From the NCBI GenBank assembly GCA_005240015.1, contig SBBV01000477.1, positions 1-12,298 of the forward strand: a DNA stretch of 12,298 nt, given 5' to 3'. This document shows positions 1 to 284 of this stretch, piece after piece. A model generated the notes under the pieces. It worked only from the letters and a program-made list of their open reading frames with translations. It was not told the DNA's origin and ran no database searches. The translations under genes and the position numbers were made by a program. The stretch's first letter is position 1, and each line of letters opens with the position of its first letter. This DNA is from Candidatus Odyssella thessalonicensis (lineage in GTDB: Bacteria; Pseudomonadota; Alphaproteobacteria; Bin65).

Positions 1-99
1 GGCGCCGAGGCGATCCATCCCGGCTACGGCTTTCTGGCGGAGAACGCGGCCTTCGCCGAGGCCTGTGCCAAGGCCGGCATCGTCTTCATCGGCCCGCCG
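1..99 (+). pseudogene. mccA: Inverted fragment of mccA (biotin carboxylase region), strand-switched
   Basis: Read on the plus strand from base 1, this piece encodes 33 residues containing AIHPGYGFLAENAAF and GIVFIGPP, the conserved stretch early in the biotin carboxylase domain of acyl-CoA carboxylase alpha subunits. It has no start codon here and hits a TAG at 106-108 soon after the homology ends. The same protein's N-terminus lies immediately to the right on the minus strand and stops matching at about base 99-101. The two pieces are therefore consecutive parts of one gene in opposite orientations. Comparison with the family from memory suggests about a dozen residues between them are absent, and would lie left of base 1. 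The homology is clear. Whether this is an artefact or a true inversion cannot be decided from the sequence. Confidence 0.8.
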
Positions 100-284
100 T
101 TGAGGTAGCTTTCGCTCGGCGCGGCGGCGCCCAGGCGCACGGCCGTGTCGGCCATCGCCACATGCAGTGCGTTGACGTCGGCGTCGGAATAGACGGCGAT
201 GGTTTCGATCGCGAAGCGCCGCGCGGTGCGGATGACCCGGCAGGCGATCTCGCCGCGATTGGCGATGAGGATGCGGCGGAACAT
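24..284 (-). pseudogene. mccA: Methylcrotonyl-CoA carboxylase alpha subunit, 5' fragment, broken by strand switch
   Basis: The first 62 codons are a normal start of a biotin-dependent carboxylase alpha subunit: MFRRILIANRGEIACRVIR, then AVYSDADVNALHVAMADTAV and a PSESYLN motif ending near base 99. The following 24 codons (GGPMKT onward, to a stop at 24-26) are an antisense reading of the inverted piece at 1-99 and are not real protein. A complete subunit would be about 650-670 residues, with ATP-grasp and C-terminal biotinyl domains. The ATG at 284-282 overlaps the stop of the upstream hydratase gene by one base (TGATG), so translation is probably coupled. MccA would carboxylate biotin with ATP and bicarbonate and hand the carboxyl group to MccB. 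Assignment to methylcrotonyl-CoA rather than propionyl- or geranyl-CoA rests on the operon context. Confidence 0.85.

Follow-up and report, generated by a model that had tools for sequence, protein, structure and literature searches.

A strand switch inside mccA at the left end of a draft-genome contig, probably a technical fold-back chimera

The leftmost 99 bases of the window, by which we mean the whole stretch of DNA analysed here (12298 b, the complete contig G000:C543), carry a part of the mccA gene in the orientation opposite to the rest of that gene. Our preferred reading, to which we assign a probability of about 0.96, explains bases 1-99 as a technical fold-back (inverted, template-switch) chimera at the end of the contig; mccA itself is then most likely present in the living genome as a single, normal, uninterrupted gene. 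The contig belongs to a draft genome (G000) with a total length of 3.52 Mb, split into 624 contigs, and with 74% completeness and 0.08% contamination.

Read on the minus strand toward the contig's left end, the window presents an mccB-like gene, a liuC-like gene and then the beginning of mccA, with an ATG (284-282) that shares one base with the liuC stop codon (286-284) (Table 1). We take this mccB-liuC-mccA order to be that of the leucine-degradation pathway. Among the matches listed (80 loci), the nearest to the window's MccB was encoded by a Rhodospirillales MAG (73% identity), with a Ferrovibrio MAG and another alphaproteobacterial MAG each at 72%, and mccA was found inside the 5-kb flanks of the relatives' mccB. 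The liuC and mccB genes adjoin the window's mccA just as they do in the family relatives, but of MccA itself, the biotin carboxylase subunit of 3-methylcrotonyl-CoA carboxylase, the window holds only residues 1-62 and an oppositely oriented block. At the far end of the window, an acetyl-CoA acetyltransferase gene (thiolase, PF00108/PF02803; 11166-12296) is truncated by the right end of the contig, where no fold-back was found (best flush arm 4 nt).

Table 1. Features at the left end of the window (coordinates in bases of the window).
Feature	Position	Strand	Evidence and remarks
mccA inverted piece: GAEAIHPGYGFLAENAAFAEACAKAGIVFIGPP	1..99	+	PF00289 positions 74-106; opposite orientation to the rest of the gene
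Junction zone, predicted microhomology	95..99	.	CGCCG on +, CGGCG on -
mccA true 5' end, codons 1-62 (MFRRILIANRGEIACRV...PSESYLN)	99..284	-	
liuC-like enoyl-CoA hydratase/isomerase	284..1069	-	PF00378, E 1.3e-56; ORF intact
mccB-like carboxyltransferase subunit	1080..2741	-	PF01039, E 1.7e-148; ORF intact; start codon unsettled

A profile search with PF00289 (Biotin_carb_N, 110 positions) matched the window on both sides of the junction, positions 1-65 of the profile aligning to the minus strand (bases 90-284, 77.6 bits) and positions 74-108 to the plus strand (bases 1-105, 56.7 bits). Both pieces exceeded the curated cut-off of 25.5, and the plus-strand piece on its own reached an E value of 5e-15. 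The strand switch inside mccA that had been proposed in the sequence-only reading was thus borne out, with one Pfam domain split over both strands. Its junction, which had been put near bases 99-101, proved correct to within a few bases: the minus-strand codons reach base 99 with S-Y-L-N and the plus-strand piece reaches the same base with F-I-G-P-P. The two pieces are adjacent parts of one locus, lying in opposite orientation at the extreme end of the contig.

The normal arrangement of these blocks was taken from a comparison set of 91 sequences, made up of the family-genome loci and 80 loci around relatives of the window's MccB and containing two double entries (L031/L036 and L032/L051). Both mccA blocks were matched in 85 of the 91 (the six without a match being L054, L062, L070, L077, L111 and L127). 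In 84 of these 85 loci the N-terminal block, SYLx, exactly 11 codons and the second block up to GP[PST] followed each other stop-free on one strand; the 85th (L034) escaped the pattern and had the same one-strand order on inspection by eye. The inverted order was found in none of the 85. The sequence-only reading had described the two blocks as directly abutting, which holds for the contig but not for the gene, in which 11 codons (33 nt) separate them in the relatives. In the relatives' order, the SYLN end is joined in the window to the FIGPP end some 132 nt downstream (the 11-codon linker plus 99 nt), from which the sequence then runs 99 nt backwards. Judged from this order, the 33-nt linker of the window's own mccA would fall beyond the contig's left end.

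Base 100 of the window is a T, and the base after GP[PST] is a T in only 1 of the 84 parsed relatives; for this reason the end of the inverted piece most likely falls at base 99 or before it. To gauge microhomology, the window was compared with the true linker of the nine family genomes having mccA, counting from the third base of the x codon. The match was 5 nt in five of them (L028, L030, L031, L032 and L033), 8 nt in L027, 3 nt in L029 and L035 and 0 in L034, so that at least 5 nt of microhomology would be expected from 6 of the 9; across the wider set, 72 of the 84 parsed loci share at most 4 nt with the window at the junction. A microhomology of about 5 nt (CGGCG) is likely, predicted from the relatives' linkers, the strain's own linker being absent from the contig; it would place the crossover somewhere in about 95-99. 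A carboxylase protein encoded by contig C308 of the same-genus genome G001 had been considered as an intact orthologue and was dropped, the matching G001 liuC piece sitting on another contig. We take that protein to be of the propionyl-CoA carboxylase type, and it was not used for the junction.

The decisive evidence comes from other contig ends in the same assembly. We fetched 100 further G000 contigs, 82 of which were readable (3022-19800 b) and gave, together with the window, 166 ends from 83 of the 624 contigs. The remaining 18 (2556-2992 b) read N and contributed nothing to the end counts. A flush exact inverted repeat starting from the very first base, with arms of 15-81 nt and loops of 0-184 nt, was present at 17 of the 166 ends, compared with 6 of 8000 anchors placed at random inside these contigs (Fisher p 6.8e-25). 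No such repeat was found at 37 ends of G001 (three contigs longer than 20 kb contributing one end each) or at the 10 readable left ends of G009 (2 of its 12 left ends read N), while eight pieces of G008 (whole contigs of 69-227 nt) were left out. Against the combined 0 of 47, the G000 ends differed with a Fisher p of 0.016, in a comparison whose controls are small and may differ from G000 in preparation. Fold-backs at contig ends thus recur as a fault in this assembly, at least within the 83 contigs that we examined, and these counts support the earlier suggestion that the contig edge carries a fold-back chimera or an assembly error.

One of the 17 ends, at the start of contig C8 (L144, 1-179), is an exact 81-nt inverted repeat with a 17-nt loop. 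The right ends of contigs C17 and C29 (L153 and L185) each consist of a flush, perfect 82-nt palindrome (arms 41, loop 0); the two are equal in arm length and unlike in sequence (26/82 bases alike). Near the right end of contig C309 (L226) lies a non-flush inverted repeat whose 27-nt arms occupy 122-149 and 179-206, counted from that end. Two tests based on codon usage and a 3-periodic Markov model, meant to reveal further fold-backs without a visible arm through strand switches near the ends of contigs, had no power: in one, 6 ends were callable and none was discordant (control 19/366, at the loosest threshold); in the second, 2 were callable and 1 was discordant (control 30/88), the window not being callable.

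No inverted repeat is present at the left end of the window (the best flush arm is 7 nt), and folding back cannot be demonstrated at this end itself, which counts against a fold-back chimera; the lack of an arm is, however, expected if the contig stops inside the roughly 132-nt loop after 99 nt. Since terminal fold-backs are common in this assembly, we read the window as one more of them, ending inside its loop, and infer that its left end belongs with the other 17. Also against this reading, the predicted microhomology shrinks to 3 nt in two of the family genomes and to 0 in a third, and the other fold-backs have no fixed post-junction length (k-mer size).

In the mechanism that we propose, copying of mccA would have reached the SYLN codons when the DNA 3' end re-annealed, through an inverted microhomology of about 5 nt (CGGCG/CGCCG), to the other strand of its own molecule at the end of FIGPP, about 132 nt further along. 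The re-annealed 3' end would then copy back, a putative enzymatic step, and the assembler would follow the chimeric molecule for 99 nt beyond the junction and halt before the arm. The artefact would have arisen either in whole-genome amplification or in library preparation.

Both settings have published parallels. Inverted joins of neighbouring segments by way of a few complementary bases are the main product described for multiple displacement amplification (MDA): more than 85% of its chimeras were inverted with intervening deletions (Lasken and Stockwell 2007, PMC1855051), and about 91% of single-end chimeras were inverted in another MDA study, ChimeraMiner (PMC6515389). As in the window, these chimeras join close neighbouring segments in opposite orientation, and a short complementary overlap of the kind is predicted for the window; unlike them, the window's chimera is seen in an assembled contig rather than in a read, and G000 is not known to have been amplified. 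Palindromes in whole-genome-amplified long reads amounted to 44-48% in two Arabidopsis samples and 11.8% in a gorilla set (PMC6218980). On the other side, a low-biomass study reports few chimeras following MDA (PMC10945365), which speaks against the chimera reading to the extent that a high chimera rate is not a necessary outcome of amplification. Sonication libraries, for their part, yield reads in which the sequence between short inverted repeats appears reverse-complemented, much as in the window (PMC10908179), but those artefacts were low-frequency variant calls in human capture libraries, whereas the window's case entered the consensus sequence at a contig end.

The main biological alternative is that about 132 nt within mccA have undergone a genuine, fixed inversion, which would inactivate leucine degradation in the strain. 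Breakpoints after SYLN and after FIGPP would give the same contig up to base 1, and neither mccA piece shows decay, as expected from a recent event. Yet such an inversion is absent from all 85 relatives' loci with a match, it is located at a contig end of an assembly with 17 exact terminal fold-backs in 166 ends, and the adjoining liuC and mccB frames are intact, so that we regard it as very improbable. We hold to be just as improbable a real inversion of the same 132 nt or so in some cells, reversible or not; if true, an mccA inversion in part of the population would turn off leucine catabolism. Far less credible still is a phase-variable switch, in which a short invertible segment would toggle MccA on and off. 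Mixed orientations could likewise break a contig here, but the breakpoint within the contig neither shows nor is predicted to have a long inverted repeat (about 5 nt being predicted; the other breakpoint lies outside the contig), and no recombinase family was found among the nine ORFs of the contig scanned (the minus-strand mccA piece being out of frame). We know of no precedent for an invertible switch within the catalytic domain of a catabolic enzyme. The sequence-only reading had entertained both an inactivating inversion and a reversible switch, and no positive support was found for either.

A purely computational origin, in which the assembler would have made a false join without chimeric molecules and ended the contig one k-mer (k = 99) later, is suggested by the length of the inverted piece, 99 nt, which is a common k-mer size. 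The other fold-backs nevertheless vary from 22 to 239 nt in arm plus loop, and in their arms as given above, with no single k prominent, even though 6 of the 17 arm-plus-loop lengths fall in the range 87-98. A search of the other readable G000 contigs turned up no exact copy of either end of the window. With lengths that vary and no end copy elsewhere, a contig end one k-mer after the junction is not supported, and we think this origin about as implausible as the phase-variable switch.

A search for the rest of mccA, which had been proposed as a further check, did not find the ATP-grasp and C-terminal parts in G000, a result of little weight in a genome 74% complete whose fetched contigs below 3 kb read N; such domains occurred only in contigs C95 and C69. 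We take the C95 match to be AccC-like and that in C69 to be CarB-like. Every one of the 18 fetched contigs below 3 kb reads N, and a search for missing genes may be blind there.

The fold-back chimera that we favour yields only a caution. About 1 in 10 of the examined ends carries an exact fold-back, so a gene cut by a contig end can be mistaken for an inverted, duplicated or broken one. The flush-inverted-repeat test detects such ends only where the contig reaches the arm, and those that stop in the loop, as the window seems to, need comparison with relatives. The strand switch in mccA is probably uninformative about the living cell.
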